IMG/VR virus record: IMGVR_UViG_3300037516_000511
Span: 1 to 36,864 of that record
From: a virus
DNA length: 36,864 nt
Direction: 5' to 3' (one strand)
In this document: one piece after another, positions 2,758 to 36,864 of the stretch
How the letters are laid out: the number at the start of each line of letters is the position of its first letter
Position numbering within the stretch: position 1 is the first letter of the stretch
Notes under the pieces: model-generated
What the model was told of the DNA's origin: nothing
The model's input: only the letters and a program-made list of their open reading frames with translations
The model's database searches: none
Program-made: the position numbers and the translations under genes

Positions 2758-3201
2758 ATGGCCGCTATTTCTCCATACTACGTCCAATCGGTAAGCACCG
2801 TTGACGCCCAAATCGGTCTTTCTGCCGACCTTACCGGAATGCTGATTGATTCCTGTTCCGCTTCTGCCGAACGCGATGAAGTCGAACATCAAAACTTCGC
2901 CGCAGTTCCAACCGTCCATATTGCCCGCAGTCCTAAGTATACGCTGACATTCGGCGCAAAAGTGCTGGCTCGAAACAGCGGCAGCACCAACGTCCACCCC
3001 GGCACTGCCATCTCCCGCGCCACCCTTGTGCAATTCCGCGCCGGAACGAATCACGGCTTTGATATTACAGAAGGTTGGTGGATGGTCGGCAACGTCACCC
3101 ATACCCAGCCGCGTGGAGATCTGGACGAGATCAATTTCCCTTGCCGCATCATTGGTTTCGCCACCAACGCCACTGGCACTTTGGTTGCGACCAATCCTTA
3201 A
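2758..3201 (+). CDS. Major tail (tube) protein candidate, short paralogue
   Basis: A 147-residue, strand-rich protein with the AISP start and the HPG motif (about residues 82-84) shared with the longer upstream gene. Length and position, just before a strong terminator and the chaperone genes, fit a siphophage major tail protein, which is normally the second most abundant virion protein. The perfect hairpin that follows at 3233-3258 would allow high expression of this gene relative to those downstream. The start is the ATG at 2758; no Shine-Dalgarno is visible. Confidence 0.78.
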   Translation: MAAISPYYVQSVSTVDAQIGLSADLTGMLIDSCSASAERDEVEHQNFAAVPTVHIARSPKYTLTFGAKVLARNSGSTNVHPGTAISRATLVQFRAGTNHGFDITEGWWMVGNVTHTQPRGDLDEINFPCRIIGFATNATGTLVATNP

Positions 3202-3287: not shown

Positions 3288-4094
3288 ATGATCGCTGAGA
3301 CTTGGATTCCAATCGATAACGACCCGCTTTTACCTGCCGCCCTTGCCTCGCTTGGGTTTGCGGTAAAGCCAAACGTCCACCTCCACCCGGATGCGCCAAC
3401 AATGGCCGCGCATAAGGTTGTGACTTGGATGATCGCTCCTGCGTCTCAGGATGGCTTGCACGACGGCAAGCAGCTTGTTCCGGCATGGACAGGAGGGCAT
3501 CTGATCAAAGCCTCGCCAGCGCATCCCCTGATTGCTGGAATGCTTGCTTTGAAAACTAGGCAAGTCCTCGCGGATTGGAAAAAGGGAATCCATGGGATGC
3601 CGCATATCGTGATCGTCACCGGCACTAAGTTCGCCCGCGCAATGCCTCCATCCGGTCGGTCCCAGAACGCCGACATCTCGCATCATCTTATCGGAGCGGT
3701 TGAGCAGATGACCCTCGACCATGCCGCCGCTGCAATCACTTGCGGACACGGCATCACCGCCATTGCCAACCAGGGATGCTTCATTACTTCTCGCGGGGCA
3801 TTTAGCATGATTGTTCCTGCCGCAACCCTTGCTGCCGCTGCTGCATCTGTTGAGCGAAATCCATCCGTATCCGCAACTGCCAAAATCGGGGATTACGGAC
3901 CCGGAGACCATCCATTCCTTTACGGTCTTGCCGCAATCCAGCAAGCCAGAGCGCTTGGTATCGTTGCCGCTCAGAAAGATCCAACCATGCACCTGAATAG
4001 TCGCAGCGGAGGCAAGGTGGCGCTTGTCTCGCAGTCTATTATGGAAGGCAACACCACCTTCAAAGAACACGTTCACAAACACCTAAGACAATGA
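3288..4094 (+). CDS. Unknown protein between tail tube and tail chaperones
   Basis: A 268-residue protein I do not recognise. It has an alpha/beta pattern with several His-rich segments (LHPDAP near 32, GHGITAI near 174, EHVHKHL at the C-terminus) and an Ala-rich helix around residues 178-190. Its end overlaps the next start by four bases (ATGA at 4091). The position between tail tube and chaperones suggests a tail assembly or tube-associated role, but nothing in the sequence proves it. The long open frame on the opposite strand is a codon-bias shadow. Confidence 0.78.
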   Translation: MIAETWIPIDNDPLLPAALASLGFAVKPNVHLHPDAPTMAAHKVVTWMIAPASQDGLHDGKQLVPAWTGGHLIKASPAHPLIAGMLALKTRQVLADWKKGIHGMPHIVIVTGTKFARAMPPSGRSQNADISHHLIGAVEQMTLDHAAAAITCGHGITAIANQGCFITSRGAFSMIVPAATLAAAAASVERNPSVSATAKIGDYGPGDHPFLYGLAAIQQARALGIVAAQKDPTMHLNSRSGGKVALVSQSIMEGNTTFKEHVHKHLRQ

Positions 4095-4594
4095 CCGAAT
4101 TACCAACACTCCCTACTCTCGACTTCAGCAACGAAGAAGCCCTTCAAGCCTCCGCCGATACTCGTGCGGCAGTTGCATTGCAGGCGGCGGATAGCCCGAT
4201 GTATTTCAAGGGCATGGCATTGAAGCTGACGATTAGCATCAAGAGCTTGTTCTTTATGCTGCAACGGCTTGACGGGATTGCCGACAACGCAGGAGACCGT
4301 CACGAACGGGATGCAGTGATTTTGCTTTATCTTGCCAGCCAGCCCGCTTCTAGTTGGTCTGAGCCGCAGAAAGTCGGAAAACATCTACTGCAACCATTGC
4401 GTTCGCGTCCGTCTGACTGGCTTGCGGCTATCGACGAATGGGCCGACAAGACTCTGTCCTGCTCCGATATCTTCGATGCCTGCATGGTCGTCGATCAACT
4501 CTGGGATCTGCATCATGCGACCCGGCCCGCCATCGATAACCCGGAGTCAGAAACGGCAGTGGGAAACGGAATGCCGATCCAGCCTGGGAAATAA
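4091..4594 (+). CDS. Tail assembly chaperone G (N-terminal, unshifted product)
   Basis: A 167-residue, mostly helical acidic protein directly upstream of a short ORF and the tape measure gene, the standard place of the siphophage tail assembly chaperones. A G_GGA_AAC slippery heptamer lies in the correct phase at 4561-4567, eight codons before the stop codon (TAA at 4592-4594). Most ribosomes would stop at 4594 to give G; those slipping -1 would make the GT fusion. G-type proteins coat the tape measure during tail assembly and are absent from virions. Confidence 0.85.
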   Translation: MTELPTLPTLDFSNEEALQASADTRAAVALQAADSPMYFKGMALKLTISIKSLFFMLQRLDGIADNAGDRHERDAVILLYLASQPASSWSEPQKVGKHLLQPLRSRPSDWLAAIDEWADKTLSCSDIFDACMVVDQLWDLHHATRPAIDNPESETAVGNGMPIQPGK

Positions 4595-4827
4595 GGATGG
4601 TGGCGGCAATCCTCCCGATTAGCGGAGGAACAGAGAAGGAGATCCGCGAAGAGATGCCCCTTGCTCGGGCTTATGCCCATTTCCATTTATCCCTGACTAA
4701 GCTGGGTCATGATGTACAGTGGCCCGCCGTGATTGCCGCCCGCCGGAGCCTGTCCGCAACATGGATGCAGGACATGATCAAGACCGCGACGGAAGCGCCA
4801 ATGACCGGCGTTTGCCACCTTGACTGA
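4091..4827 (+). CDS. Tail assembly chaperone GT fusion made by -1 frameshift
   Basis: A -1 slip at GGGAAAC (4561-4567) joins residue 159 of G to the -1 frame at CGG (4567), giving about 245 residues. The shifted frame reads RNADPAWEIRMVAAILPISGG before and through the ATG at 4597, so the T domain is open upstream of that ATG. The T part contains the KEIREEMPLARAYAHFH segment that I consider typical of these domains. The site has the same form as lambda's G GGA AAG. Frameshift frequency cannot be judged from sequence. Confidence 0.72.
4561..4567 (+). promoter_or_regulatory. Slippery heptamer GGGAAAC for -1 ribosomal frameshift
   Basis: In the G frame the codons read GTG GGA AAC, so the heptamer is phased as X XXY YYZ (G GGA AAC). 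Slipping back one base lets the tRNAs re-pair on GGG and AAA. The target frame is open without a stop from here to 4827. A small CCTCC/GGAGG hairpin lies at 4611-4628, about 43 bases downstream, possibly too far to act as the stimulator. Confidence 0.78.
4597..4827 (+). CDS. T domain of the tail chaperone, possible separate start
   Basis: A 76-residue ORF with an ATG two bases after the G stop (TAAGGATG). It corresponds to the C-terminal T part of the GT fusion that recruits the tape measure/tube proteins in related phages. It could be reinitiated by itself, but the open upstream frame and the slippery heptamer make expression as GT more likely. Listed so that the ATG-initiated alternative is on record. 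Confidence 0.4.
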   Translation: MVAAILPISGGTEKEIREEMPLARAYAHFHLSLTKLGHDVQWPAVIAARRSLSATWMQDMIKTATEAPMTGVCHLD

Positions 4828-4842
4828 CCTGCCTTAAAACCG

Positions 4843-6618
4843 ATGGCAACCCGCAAGTCCAGTATTACCGCCCAACTCACACTGGCGGGGCAAGCTCAGT
4901 TCAAATCTGGCCTGAGCCAGATCGGAATGGAGGCGAATAAGCTTGGCAAAACGCTGCGGGAAATGAAGCCCATCACGTTTGATGGCGGGGCGAATCAGGC
5001 AAAAAAGGCATGGGCACTGACTGAAGAGCATCAGAGGGCGCATCATCGCGTTTTGGAGCGGCAGGCTAAGATAAATAAAGGCCGCATGGATGCTCTTGGG
5101 CTGGGCGGCATGGGAGGAACCGGAAGCACTCGCGCAAAGGGGGGCGGGGGCGGTAGTTCGTATGGGCTTGGGGTTGGCTATAATGCCATTCAGGATTTGG
5201 TTCAAGGTGGTCCTGCTGCTATTGCAAACAACATCCCGCAGATTGTTGATATGGTCTCCAAGTCGCCAAAGCTGCAAAAAGGGCTTGCTGGCGCAGCGGC
5301 ATTTACGGCTATTGCTTGGGGCGTGAAGAGCGTAATGGACGCTTACGAGACCCACGGAAGCGTTACCGCTGAAAGCAGGCGCATGGATGAAGGGCGAGCA
5401 AAGGTCAGGTATCAATTCCAAGCAGTAGAGCAATCCAATAGAGTCGCGGAAGGTCAAATTACAGGGGTTTCGCAGGCTAAAAGAATCGCCGAAATAGATG
5501 CCCATTCCCGCAAAGTCCGCAACGCAGACGACCAAGAGCATCAAGCCTCCCTTCGTAAAATGGGAATGCTGGAGACTCTTAGGCTTGAAAAGATCTCGAC
5601 CGGGACCGATGAGGTTAAAGTCATCAAAGAGACAGCGGCAAGCCAAATTGCCTTCATAGACAATCAGACCAAAATTGAGGAAAGTTACTCAAATACGGCA
5701 ATGCGCTTGGCGGAAGAGCGCAAGACGCAAGCTATCCAATTGGCAAAAGAAGCAGAAGCCGAACTATTTGCCATTCAGCAAGGTAATCGCAGAGCAGGAA
5801 CATCAGCATCTGATGAAGAGCTTGTTCGTCAGGCTGAATTGGAGAAAACTGCGCCAGCAATGCAAGCGAGGGCAGATGCCGCAAAGCAAGAGTATGACGC
5901 GGCGGTTGCCCGTGTGACTGCGGCAAAGGAAGAACGAGAAACGGCCAAGATCACCAAGGATTTAATCAAGCTCAAAGAGGAAGTAGACCTCAAGAGCGCA
6001 AGAGCAGCAGAAACCGCCGCAAACAACCAACGCGAACTCACTCGTTACCAAACCCGCGTAAATTCCATCCAAGAAGAAGGGCGCAAGCAATACGACCGGG
6101 AGCAGGAAGAAAAGACCCGCACTGAAACCACAAAGGATTTAACTGAGCGGGAGAAGATGTCCAAGATGTCTCCTCGCGCTTTGTCCAAGTATCAGGAGGG
6201 AAAGCAAATCAAGGCAAGTGAGGAGGAATTTATTAAGCAAGGGTTTTCGCCTGTTGAAGCGGAAAAGATGGCAAACCGGGAAAATCAACTCTCTAAGGAC
6301 ACTGATCCGTCTCGTCCAAAGCGCATTCGTGGCGCAGGATACGCTGGCGGAAAGGGAGAGGCAATGGGTGGGCTTGGTAGCGCAACCTATGGAGGACTGG
6401 AGGGGCTTGAGTCAATGCAGCCACCATCAGGCAGGGAACGCAAGACAATTTCCGGCGCAGGCAATAAAGACAAAGAGAAGAAATCCGGGGTTAATGACAA
6501 GCCGGATAATCTTTATCAAGTCATGGTCAAGGGGTTTGCTGATGTGGTAAAGTCTATCCGCGACACCGGGCCAAACGCAGCGGAAAGAGCAAAACCAACC
6601 AGCAGCATAAAAGGATAA
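4843..6618 (+). CDS. Tail tape measure protein
   Basis: A 591-residue protein directly after the chaperones. The N-terminal ~45 residues are typical of tape measures, a Gly-rich stretch follows (~87-105), then one hydrophobic segment (about residues 145-165, LAGAAAFTAIAWGVKSVM), and from ~180 to 470 an almost continuous coiled coil rich in A, E, K, R and Q. At about 1.5 angstrom per residue the tail would be short to medium, near 90 nm, assuming the whole chain measures. No lysin or peptidase domain was seen. There is no Shine-Dalgarno before the ATG. Confidence 0.92.
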   Translation: MATRKSSITAQLTLAGQAQFKSGLSQIGMEANKLGKTLREMKPITFDGGANQAKKAWALTEEHQRAHHRVLERQAKINKGRMDALGLGGMGGTGSTRAKGGGGGSSYGLGVGYNAIQDLVQGGPAAIANNIPQIVDMVSKSPKLQKGLAGAAAFTAIAWGVKSVMDAYETHGSVTAESRRMDEGRAKVRYQFQAVEQSNRVAEGQITGVSQAKRIAEIDAHSRKVRNADDQEHQASLRKMGMLETLRLEKISTGTDEVKVIKETAASQIAFIDNQTKIEESYSNTAMRLAEERKTQAIQLAKEAEAELFAIQQGNRRAGTSASDEELVRQAELEKTAPAMQARADAAKQEYDAAVARVTAAKEERETAKITKDLIKLKEEVDLKSARAAETAANNQRELTRYQTRVNSIQEEGRKQYDREQEEKTRTETTKDLTEREKMSKMSPRALSKYQEGKQIKASEEEFIKQGFSPVEAEKMANRENQLSKDTDPSRPKRIRGAGYAGGKGEAMGGLGSATYGGLEGLESMQPPSGRERKTISGAGNKDKEKKSGVNDKPDNLYQVMVKGFADVVKSIRDTGPNAAERAKPTSSIKG

Positions 6619-10552: not shown

Positions 10553-10767
10553 ATGAAATCACCAAAACCAAATCTATCTTTAAGTCCAAGTCCGTCTTTG
10601 CCGGGTTCTTGGTTGCCCTGGCCGGTGCGCTTGGATCATTCGCCCCAAACCTCGCTCCTTGGCTGGCTGCTCATGCCGATGTCGTCCTCATGGGTGCGGG
10701 GATTCTTCAGGTCGGCTTGCGAATGGTCACAAAGGGTAGCGTTACTCTTTTTGGCGACTCTGAGTAG
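10549..10767 (+). CDS. Holin-like protein with two TM segments
   Basis: A 72-residue protein with a basic start (TKTKSIFKSK), two hydrophobic segments (about residues 16-35 and 45-63) separated by a short polar turn with Pro, and a charged tail. Size, topology and the endolysin gene 0.5 kb downstream support a small class II-like holin that permeabilises the inner membrane and triggers lysis. A lipoprotein gene is nested in another frame over its 3' third. Confidence 0.75.
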   Translation: MNEITKTKSIFKSKSVFAGFLVALAGALGSFAPNLAPWLAAHADVVLMGAGILQVGLRMVTKGSVTLFGDSE

Positions 10768-10954
10768 TTGCGCTCACGATTACAAGGAGGCGAGACAAAC
10801 GCTTAAGGCTATTCCGATTTCTTTACCTGCCGCTCCGATTAACCCAGAGCCTTTGCAATACGTTCCGATAGTCCCTCGAACCAAGCACGAACTAGAAAGG
10901 CAAGCCGATGACGACCAGCAAGCCCTCGAGACCCTTCAAGCCCTTAGATTCTGA
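10673..10954 (+). CDS. Spanin-like lipoprotein overlapping the holin gene
   Basis: This +1-frame ORF starts inside the holin gene; ATG at 10673 or 10679, or GTG at 10694, could be used. From 10673 it has 93 residues with a hydrophobic stretch VALLFLATL followed by the lipobox LSSC (Cys 33). The mature part has a Pro-rich run (ISLPAAPINPEPLQYVPIVP) and a charged helical end. Lipobox, proline-rich spacer and nested arrangement recall Rz1-type outer-membrane spanins, although the usual host gene would be Rz, not a holin. Confidence 0.6.
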   Translation: MPMSSSWVRGFFRSACEWSQRVALLFLATLSSCAHDYKEARQTLKAIPISLPAAPINPEPLQYVPIVPRTKHELERQADDDQQALETLQALRF

Positions 10955-11057
10955 CGAGGAACGCAGCATCCCAGTTGGATGCTTCCTGTCCTTTGCCTGC
11001 GGAATTGCCGCTGTCGTCTGCATCCTTGCCCGAATCATTTACTATTACATCCCATGA
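10908..11057 (+). CDS. 49-residue membrane peptide
   Basis: ATG at 10908 to TGA at 11055-11057 encodes a small protein: a polar N-terminus (MTTSKPSRPFKPLDSDEE), one transmembrane segment (about residues 24-46, CFLSFACGIAAVVCILARIIYY) and end YIP. It overlaps the 3' end of the spanin-like gene and the next start (CCATGA), filling what would otherwise be an empty 100-base gap. A lysis accessory (second holin, antiholin or inner-membrane spanin subunit) is plausible. Confidence 0.6.
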   Translation: MTTSKPSRPFKPLDSDEERSIPVGCFLSFACGIAAVVCILARIIYYYIP

Positions 11058-11281
11058 AAGTTTACCTGCTCAAATACCTCGCCACTTGGCTGGCCGACAA
11101 CAACAAAGACATCATCAACTTGATTGTCTCTGCAATCAAATCCGCTGACAACCGCTTTGAAAAAGGACCGGAAAAGCTGCAATTCGTTCGGACTGCTGCT
11201 GTTTCGTATCTGACCGGGAAAGCCGGATGGGTTGTCGATACCGTTATCCACCTGCTCTTGGCTTGGGTCCGTAAAGCATGA
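11054..11281 (+). CDS. Unknown lysis-cassette protein
   Basis: A 75-residue helical protein starting at the ATGA overlap at 11054; the ATGA overlaps on both sides support this start over the upstream in-frame TTG. The end (GWVVDTVIHLLLAWVRKA) is amphipathic or weakly membrane-seeking. The middle (EKGPEKLQFVRTAAVSYLTGKAG) resembles the cytoplasmic part of some LLH-type holins. Its role is not certain; location between holin and endolysin suggests a lysis function. Confidence 0.7.
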   Translation: MKVYLLKYLATWLADNNKDIINLIVSAIKSADNRFEKGPEKLQFVRTAAVSYLTGKAGWVVDTVIHLLLAWVRKA

Positions 11282-11790
11282 GCACTCTCGCAGTCCGACA
11301 GAAGCTGATCGACATTGCCCGCCGCGAGGTGGGGGTAAAAGAGGTTGGGCGCAATACCGGCAAACGAGTCAGGGAGTATCAGGCCGCGACCAATCTGGAA
11401 GGCACTGGCTGGCCCTGGTGCGCTGCGTTTGTCTGCTGGTGCGTCCGTGAGTGGGGCAAGGATAAGGACGTTCTAACCGCGCTTAAAATGACTCCGGCGC
11501 AATTTGATAAATGGAGACCCAAGACCGCTGCTGCTTTTGGGTTGGAGGATTGGGCGAGAAAAAAAGGATTGGAAGTCCTTGATGCTGATGACAAGCCGAA
11601 TCTTCGCACTGGCGATATATTAACATTTGACACAAGTCACACGGGATTTGTTGCCGACGACGCAAAGGGAGTCATTAAGACCATTGAAGGCAATACAGGC
11701 GCATCCGGCGGCAGGGATGGAGATGGCGTCTGGGACAAATCCCGCAACTTCAAGGAATCCCGCCGTTTCATTCGTTTGCTCCAGCCTTAA
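11278..11790 (+). CDS. Endolysin, CHAP/NlpC-P60-like amidase or peptidase
   Basis: A 170-residue single-domain lysin. The GWPWCAAFVCWC segment carries the presumed nucleophile Cys48, SHTGFV carries His121, and IEGNTG (Glu137, Asn139) supplies the third polar residue, in the order expected for CHAP-type cysteine peptidases. No separate cell-wall-binding domain and no signal peptide are present, so release would need the holin. It overlaps the preceding gene by four bases. Confidence 0.87.
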   Translation: MSTLAVRQKLIDIARREVGVKEVGRNTGKRVREYQAATNLEGTGWPWCAAFVCWCVREWGKDKDVLTALKMTPAQFDKWRPKTAAAFGLEDWARKKGLEVLDADDKPNLRTGDILTFDTSHTGFVADDAKGVIKTIEGNTGASGGRDGDGVWDKSRNFKESRRFIRLLQP

Positions 11791-35603: not shown

Positions 35604-36749
35604 ATGGCTAACTCGCTTACCAATCTGATCCCAATCGCTTATCGCGCTTTGGATGTCGTCTCCCGTGAACTGACCGGATTGATTTCCGCCGTCAACGTGG
35701 ATGCTGCCGCTGATACCATTGCCCAGGGCCAGACGATCTATTCGCCTGTTGTTCCTTCCGGCAACGCCATCGGAAACATCGCTCCGGCAATGACCGTGAC
35801 CGCCGCGACCGACATCACCTACGGGACCAAATCCCTTGTGGTTGATAACTTCAAGGTCTCCGGTTTCAATTGGACTGGTGAAGAAGAGTTCGGCATCAAC
35901 TCCGGCGTTCGCATGGAAAACCTGATGCGCGACCAACTCGCCCAGGAGTTCCGCAAGCACATCAATGCCATGGAATTGGCCCTCTGCACTGCTGCTAAAA
36001 ACGGTGCTTCCCGCGCCATCGGAACCACTGCCGGAACCGCCCCTATCCTCGCCGACATTGCCGGTGCCAAGAAGATCCTCGACGACAACGGTGCGCCAAT
36101 GTCCGACCGTTCCGTGATCCTTGATACCACTGCTGGTGTTGCTTTCCGGGGTATCTCCAACCTGTTCAAAGTAAATGAAGCCGGTGAGTCCGGTCTGCTC
36201 CGCAATGGCGTTCTCGGTAGCCTCTACGGGTTTGATGTCCGCGAGTCTGCTGGCATCCAGCCCGTCACCAAAGGCGGCATGACCGGCGCTTTGATCAACA
36301 ACGGAAACATTGCGGTCGGATCTACCGTCCTGACCTACGATGGCGGAACCGTCAACACCACTGGTTTTGCTGCCGGAGACATTATCACGATTGGAACTGA
36401 CGCCAACAAATATGTGGTTGAAGTCGGCTCCACCTCCACCACCGGAACCATCACGATTGCCGCTCCCGGTTTGCGAGTGGCTACCGCTAATGATACCGCA
36501 ATCACGGTCTTTGGAACCAGCACCCGCAACATTGCCTTGAGCCGGAACGCGATTACCCTCGCCACCCGTCTGCCTAAGTTCCAAGCCAACGACATGGCCG
36601 CAGACCGCATGGTCATCACTGACCCGAACACCGGCATCAGCTTTGAGCTTTGTATGTGGCCTGGTCAACGCATGGTGAAATACGAAGTCGCCATTGCTTA
36701 CGGGATGACGGTTATCAAGCCGGAACATCTTGCGGTCATCATCGGCTAA
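35604..36749 (+). CDS. Major capsid protein with insertion domain (P22-coat-like)
   Basis: A 381-residue coat protein. The N-terminal part (LTGLISAVNVDAAADTIAQGQTIYSPVVP, IAPAMTVTAATDITYGTKSLVVDNFKVSGFNWTGEE) and the spine-helix region (MRDQLAQEFRKHINAMELALC) fit HK97-fold, P22-coat-like proteins. An insertion domain occupies ~242-305 (GGTVNTTGFAAGDIITIGTDANKYVVEV ... TITIAAPGLRVATANDTAITVFG). The C-terminus (PGQRMVKYEVAIAYGMTVIKPEHLAVIIG) completes the P domain. The leader is CATAAAAAATT with no Shine-Dalgarno despite the need for high expression. Confidence 0.92.
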   Translation: MANSLTNLIPIAYRALDVVSRELTGLISAVNVDAAADTIAQGQTIYSPVVPSGNAIGNIAPAMTVTAATDITYGTKSLVVDNFKVSGFNWTGEEEFGINSGVRMENLMRDQLAQEFRKHINAMELALCTAAKNGASRAIGTTAGTAPILADIAGAKKILDDNGAPMSDRSVILDTTAGVAFRGISNLFKVNEAGESGLLRNGVLGSLYGFDVRESAGIQPVTKGGMTGALINNGNIAVGSTVLTYDGGTVNTTGFAAGDIITIGTDANKYVVEVGSTSTTGTITIAAPGLRVATANDTAITVFGTSTRNIALSRNAITLATRLPKFQANDMAADRMVITDPNTGISFELCMWPGQRMVKYEVAIAYGMTVIKPEHLAVIIG

Positions 36750-36864
36750 CACTTCGCGGGAGGGGAGTAACCTTTAGTAAAGGGTGTAACTCCCTTCCCC
36801 CGCACCAATCGCCGCCCCGGCTCGGACTTACCGGGCCGGGGCTTTCTTGTTACCATGGACCTAC
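36738..36864. repeat. Terminal direct repeat, right copy
   Basis: Identical to 1-127. It contains the capsid stop codon, a second copy of the hairpin and terminator (36814-36851), and the first ten coding bases (36855-36864) of the gene at 118, which is complete only at the left end. Confidence 0.93.

Follow-up and report, generated by a model that had tools for sequence, protein, structure and literature searches.

How the T-like open reading frame (ORF) at this locus is expressed, as a separate protein or as an extension of the G-like ORF that it overlaps, is the question addressed here. The window, by which we mean the whole stretch of DNA analysed (36,864 nucleotides, positions 1 to 36,864 of IMG/VR virus record IMGVR_UViG_3300037516_000511, a phage known from environmental sequencing), carries the two ORFs between a putative tail tube gene and a putative tape measure gene, and where they overlap there is a slippery heptamer, GGGAAAC. 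With high confidence, we assign the site to the programmed -1 ribosomal frameshifts of the lambda G/GT type. An earlier note on this DNA had read it in the same way, and that reading is supported by the conserved heptamer and frame together with a switch in selective constraint, the chaperone and tape measure identities being taken from gene order, size and precedent. The features discussed are as follows.

2758 to 3201, + strand: putative tail tube protein, 147 aa, named from its position; it resembles the N-terminal part of the product of gene 1711-2739.
4091 to 4594, + strand: G-like ORF, 167 codons (167 aa), candidate for the shorter tail assembly chaperone; its ATG shares bases with the preceding gene's stop and its own stop is TAA 4592-4594; under purifying selection, with a distant relative in locus L080.
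4561 to 4567, + strand: slippery heptamer GGGAAAC in phase G_GGA_AAC, invariant across the nine genomes of the clade.
4561 to 4827, + strand: T-like ORF, read in the -1 frame and 88 codons long when counted from the GGG of the heptamer, with similarity to T in L082, L084 and Akkermansia phage Moulinsart.
4568 to 4594, + strand: dual-coded overlap, GMPIQPGK* in the G frame and RNADPAWEIR in the -1 frame; of its five variable columns none is silent in the G frame and four are in the -1 frame.
4572 to 4608, + strand: possible weak hairpin UGCCG...CGGCA, a candidate stimulator 4 nt past the heptamer (z -1.8 in the window).
4597 to 4599, + strand: ATG two bases past the G stop, the T start for an ATG-based gene caller; among other lineages only L082/L083 have a counterpart near the G stop.
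4843 to 6618, + strand: putative tape measure gene, 591 aa, named from position, length and composition only.

Counting codons from the ATG at 4091 places GTG (4559-4561), GGA and AAC at the heptamer, which confirms the phase G_GGA_AAC that had been claimed for it and which is the classic tandem-slip pattern. The -1 frame is without a stop from 4540 to 4824 and closes at TGA 4825-4827, so that the earlier statement that it stays open to 4827 is also correct. Onward from the heptamer its translation is GKRNADPAWEIRM..., and the -1 reading from GGGAAAC is also written as GKRNADPAWEIRMVAAILPISGG... The end of the G stop lies 27 nt from the heptamer, and the first ATG, GTG or TTG downstream of the heptamer in the -1 frame is ATG 4597. 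The description of this codon as the only ATG of the downstream ORF goes too far, as a GTG and more ATGs follow it, but it is indeed the first start codon, with none between the -1 frame stop and ATG 4597. It is also the start that an ATG-based caller picks for T, and such a caller would miss the fusion as the note had warned. GGGAAAC occurs once in the window, against 7.0 expected from dinucleotide shuffles. The 35 window genes hold nine in-phase XXXYYYZ heptamers in 8578 in-phase positions, and that at 4561-4567 is alone among the nine in having a -1 frame that runs well beyond the end of its gene (233 nt; the next best runs 5 nt).

For a programmed frameshift, the majority of ribosomes would translate ORF 4091-4594 to TAA 4592-4594 and release G, of 167 aa, and a minority would slip one base back on G_GGA_AAC, re-pair on GGG AAA and read the -1 frame as far as 4827, giving a G-T fusion of ~245 residues. 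We infer the occurrence of slippage and its rate. By analogy with lambda, the tape measure protein, whose putative gene comes next (4843-6618), would be bound by G and GT and would receive its tail tube subunits by way of the T part.

Close relatives demonstrate that the site and its phase are conserved and that, ahead of the ATG, selection acts on the -1 frame. This clade comprises nine genomes, namely the window and eight other IMG/VR genomes encoding G at 78-99% identity, and the heptamer, its phase and both ORFs are kept in all nine, down to 78% G identity, as is the ATG two bases past the G stop. We tallied the variable columns on each side of the heptamer. Within 4540-4560, where the -1 frame is already open, six columns vary, of which four are silent in the G frame and none in the -1 frame; within 4568-4594 none of the variable columns is silent in the G frame and four are silent in the -1 frame, from a total of five columns only. 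At least four of five changes would fall at that codon position with a probability of 0.0009 if the upstream G-frame pattern applied, and of 0.045 in the absence of any frame. Selective constraint changes frame at the heptamer, from the G frame before it to the -1 frame after it, and does so upstream of the ATG; given the pattern of silent changes in 4568-4594, the codons between the heptamer and ATG 4597 are kept as -1 frame codons. Over T as a whole, 51 of 73 variable columns lie at the third codon position of the -1 frame, indicating purifying selection.

We also considered more distant loci, of which 80 were gathered by a major capsid protein search, scanned for ORFs that contain a heptamer in phase and extend in the -1 frame, and then searched with profiles of each G and T. 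Most of the 80 have no detectable relatives of the window's tail genes. The scan found the same architecture in several lineages, where the G ORF spans 131-203 codons and T, counted from the heptamer, 77-88 codons, and by profile both G and T were detected in 32 loci, among which 22 distinct overlap sequences are represented. Every one of the 32 carries GGGAAAC, GGGAAAA or CCCAAAC ([G/C]3AAA[A/C]) in phase, with 6-27 nt separating it from the end of the G stop; the count of 32 is partly ascertained because distant lineages were first found via their heptamers. Three short loci that the heptamer scan had skipped (L036, L057 and L070) were found by the G and T profiles, and the heptamer is present in these too. 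The check that the earlier note proposed, conservation of heptamer and frame in relatives, therefore came out in its favor in 9/9 clade genomes and 32/32 two-ORF loci, and among the relatives examined there was no case of its proposed refutation, a heptamer lost with both ORFs retained.

The T start codon behaves differently. It adjoins the G stop only in the window clade and in L082/L083, where an ATGA is found at the G stop; in other lineages the first start codon is 24-81 nt past the G stop, or there is none within the stretch examined. For instance, L080 uses GGGAAAC and has no start codon until 75 nt past its G stop. As the heptamer is present in all two-ORF loci and the adjacent start codon in two lineages, the heptamer is the shared feature and the ATG is not. 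In L028-L034, L037-L054, L066, L076-L079 and L085, which have a similar capsid protein, a G-plus-T pair was not detected; these capsid-sharing phages would have either a different tail module or a contig ending too early.

At the protein level the window G is related to that of L080 (BLASTP E 3e-5 in one comparison, with a link by profile as well). The window T is similar to T of L084 (profile comparison E 2e-4 versus 0.41 for an unrelated control; z 4.9, 0/1000 shuffles), L082 (z 6.3, 0/1000 shuffles) and Moulinsart (z 5.7, 0/1000 shuffles, ~72 residues). Clear single-sequence matches to T are limited to L082, L084/L096 and Moulinsart, and single-sequence alignments to T of L055, L072, L080 and L035 were weak or not significant. 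The similarity with L082 and Moulinsart starts directly after the heptamer, upstream of ATG 4597, which along with the -1-frame constraint upstream of 4597 bears out the earlier claim that T-like sequence begins before the ATG.

Akkermansia phage Moulinsart (L018, ON453896.1) is the nearest named phage by portal, at 30%. It has an in-phase A_AAA_AAC at 11081, directly before the stop of ORF 10632-11090, and this ORF and 11120-11332 have been deposited as separate hypothetical proteins, with T taken from an internal ATG. We therefore regard Moulinsart 10632-11332 as a candidate for an unannotated G-T frameshift. Between the G proteins of Moulinsart and the window there is no detectable similarity. 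Searches of genome contigs with T and portal found no prophage relative, and a further profile, g518, gathered many distant genes on iteration, likely through profile drift, and was set aside.

The alternative that survives best is compatible with frameshifting and adds to it: GT might be made by frameshifting and some minor amount of free T by coupled re-initiation at ATG 4597. This codon is conserved within the clade and adjoins the stop, but it is missing in most other lineages, it may simply be a conserved methionine codon, and the described products of lambda are G and GT (PMC5009743). On balance we consider such a double route unlikely.

Far less probable, in our judgement, is that G and T are made only as separate proteins, ribosomes terminating at TAA 4592-4594 and re-initiating at ATG 4597, with the heptamer incidental. 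The ATG two bases past the stop in all nine clade genomes and the ATGA of L082/L083 would suit this scheme, as would anti-Shine-Dalgarno pairing upstream of ATG 4597 which, if modest (-4.2 kcal/mol), is no weaker than that of most genes of the phage. Re-initiation does not explain, however, why the codons between heptamer and ATG evolve in the -1 frame; moreover the similarity of T reaches upstream of the ATG, the heptamer is invariant, and lineages whose first start codon comes only 24-81 nt beyond the G stop, or that have none in the stretch examined, keep it nonetheless.

Transcriptional slippage at GGGAAAC would give an identical product from the identical place as ribosomal frameshifting. 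Polymerase slippage favors long homopolymer runs, but the runs at GGGAAAC are just three bases, and the variants GGGAAAA and CCCAAAC retain the X_XXY_YYZ tandem-slip pattern rather than a single long run, which leaves this explanation highly improbable. The A AAA AAC of Moulinsart, a run of six, is compatible with either transcriptional or ribosomal slippage. Finally, an ordinary two-gene overlap with a coincidental heptamer can be practically dismissed, since in-phase slippery heptamers do arise at ~0.001 per codon (238 in-phase X_XXY_YYZ heptamers in 243,292 codons of the related loci) but at that rate ~0.02 would be expected in the 18-codon overlap, yet the heptamer recurs in every lineage with both ORFs and the selective frame changes at it.

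With regard to stimulators of the frameshift, we see no convincing candidate in the sequences of the window clade. The hairpin after the heptamer is weak there (z -1.8 in the window and z +0.6 in L009, where it is unsupported), and no covariation was found in it across the clade. Strong hairpins 4-7 nt past the heptamer, lacking in the window clade, are present in L084 (14329-14398, z -3.8), L080 (12906-12975, z -2.4) and L072 (7634-7703, z -2.3). Two other candidates were rejected. A match of 4561-4605 to Rfam RF01097 (Gag/pro frameshift site) is below the cut-off and four of its six pairs are non-standard, so that its score comes mostly from the heptamer and unpaired letters. A Shine-Dalgarno-like GGAG 14 nt upstream of the heptamer is found in 8/9 clade genomes and lost in L009, and the gene starts are mostly without Shine-Dalgarno sequences.

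The chaperone function of G and GT is inferred from their surroundings. Gene order and sizes fit a G/T pair between a putative tail tube and a putative tape measure gene. Pfam and PHROGs gave no match above chance level for G, T, the putative tape measure or the putative tail tube, and a PDB sequence search for similarity to known tail assembly chaperones gave no match; with no family model matching, the names tail chaperone and tape measure are given on the strength of gene order, size and precedent. AlphaFold models were too poor for a fold search (mean pLDDT 49 for G and 34 for the putative tail tube). The adjacent genes 1711-2739 and 2758-3201 have a similar N-terminal domain, at 26% identity, the first being ~190 residues longer, and they may be tail tube proteins that arose by duplication. 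A 268-aa gene of unknown family (3288-4094) separates the putative tail tube gene from G, a place where lambda has no gene.

Some observations concern the genome as a whole. An exact 127-base direct repeat is present at the window ends (1-127 and 36738-36864), which probably means that the record represents a closed circle (36,737 bases) opened immediately downstream of the capsid gene; the relative L021 runs across the window's end-to-end junction. Most of the 35 gene starts tested have little or no anti-Shine-Dalgarno pairing, weaker than at random positions, which suggests initiation independent of Shine-Dalgarno pairing in the host.

The slip site of lambda is GGGAAAG. The window differs from lambda gpG/gpGT in its GGGAAAC and in that its G and T have no Pfam or PHROGs match, and resembles it in having two ORFs before the tape measure gene, a -1 slip near the 3' end of G and T in the -1 frame (PMC5009743). 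According to PMC5009743, the G/GT frameshift is a conserved trait of long-tailed phages, the lambda tape measure is bound by both G and GT, with T recruiting the subunits of the tail tube, and tail chaperone ORFs show low similarity to one another; similarity to known chaperones is accordingly not a requirement for this type. GGGAAAC itself has been reported as the G/GT site in Caulobacter phage CcrColossus (PMC3556154), Burkholderia phage KL1 (PMC3483164) and haloarchaeal virus HCTV-1 (PMC5009743). In KL1 (gp18/gp19) it was predicted from sequence and is just before the G stop, with a gene between GT and the tape measure, whereas in the window 27 nt separate the heptamer from the end of the G stop and the putative tape measure gene is directly after T. 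CcrColossus likewise has its chaperone pair ahead of the tape measure, but it belongs to the large phiCbK-like siphophages and its tape measure, of 2,155 aa, is far longer; HCTV-1 g-t has the same G_GGA_AAC and an archaeal host. Moulinsart shares with the window an in-phase heptamer near the G stop, a similar T part and a related portal (30%), and differs in its A_AAA_AAC heptamer, in the several genes between T and tape measure, and in that its frameshift is unannotated.

The mechanism is thus a known one in tailed phages, and what is new is its very probable use in protein families that have no annotation and are invisible to the databases. The frameshift could be recognised from selection on the overlap even where homology to known chaperones is lacking, and this is of use for annotation, as gene callers split or mis-start T both here and in Akkermansia phage Moulinsart. 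We tentatively propose that the G-T frameshift is ancestral in a large unannotated group of phages that have this major capsid protein in common and for which the nearest named relative is a phage of Akkermansia, with the slip heptamer, T start codon and downstream hairpin gained and lost separately. If this proposal were true, the group would allow frameshift signals to be set against the length of the tape measure.
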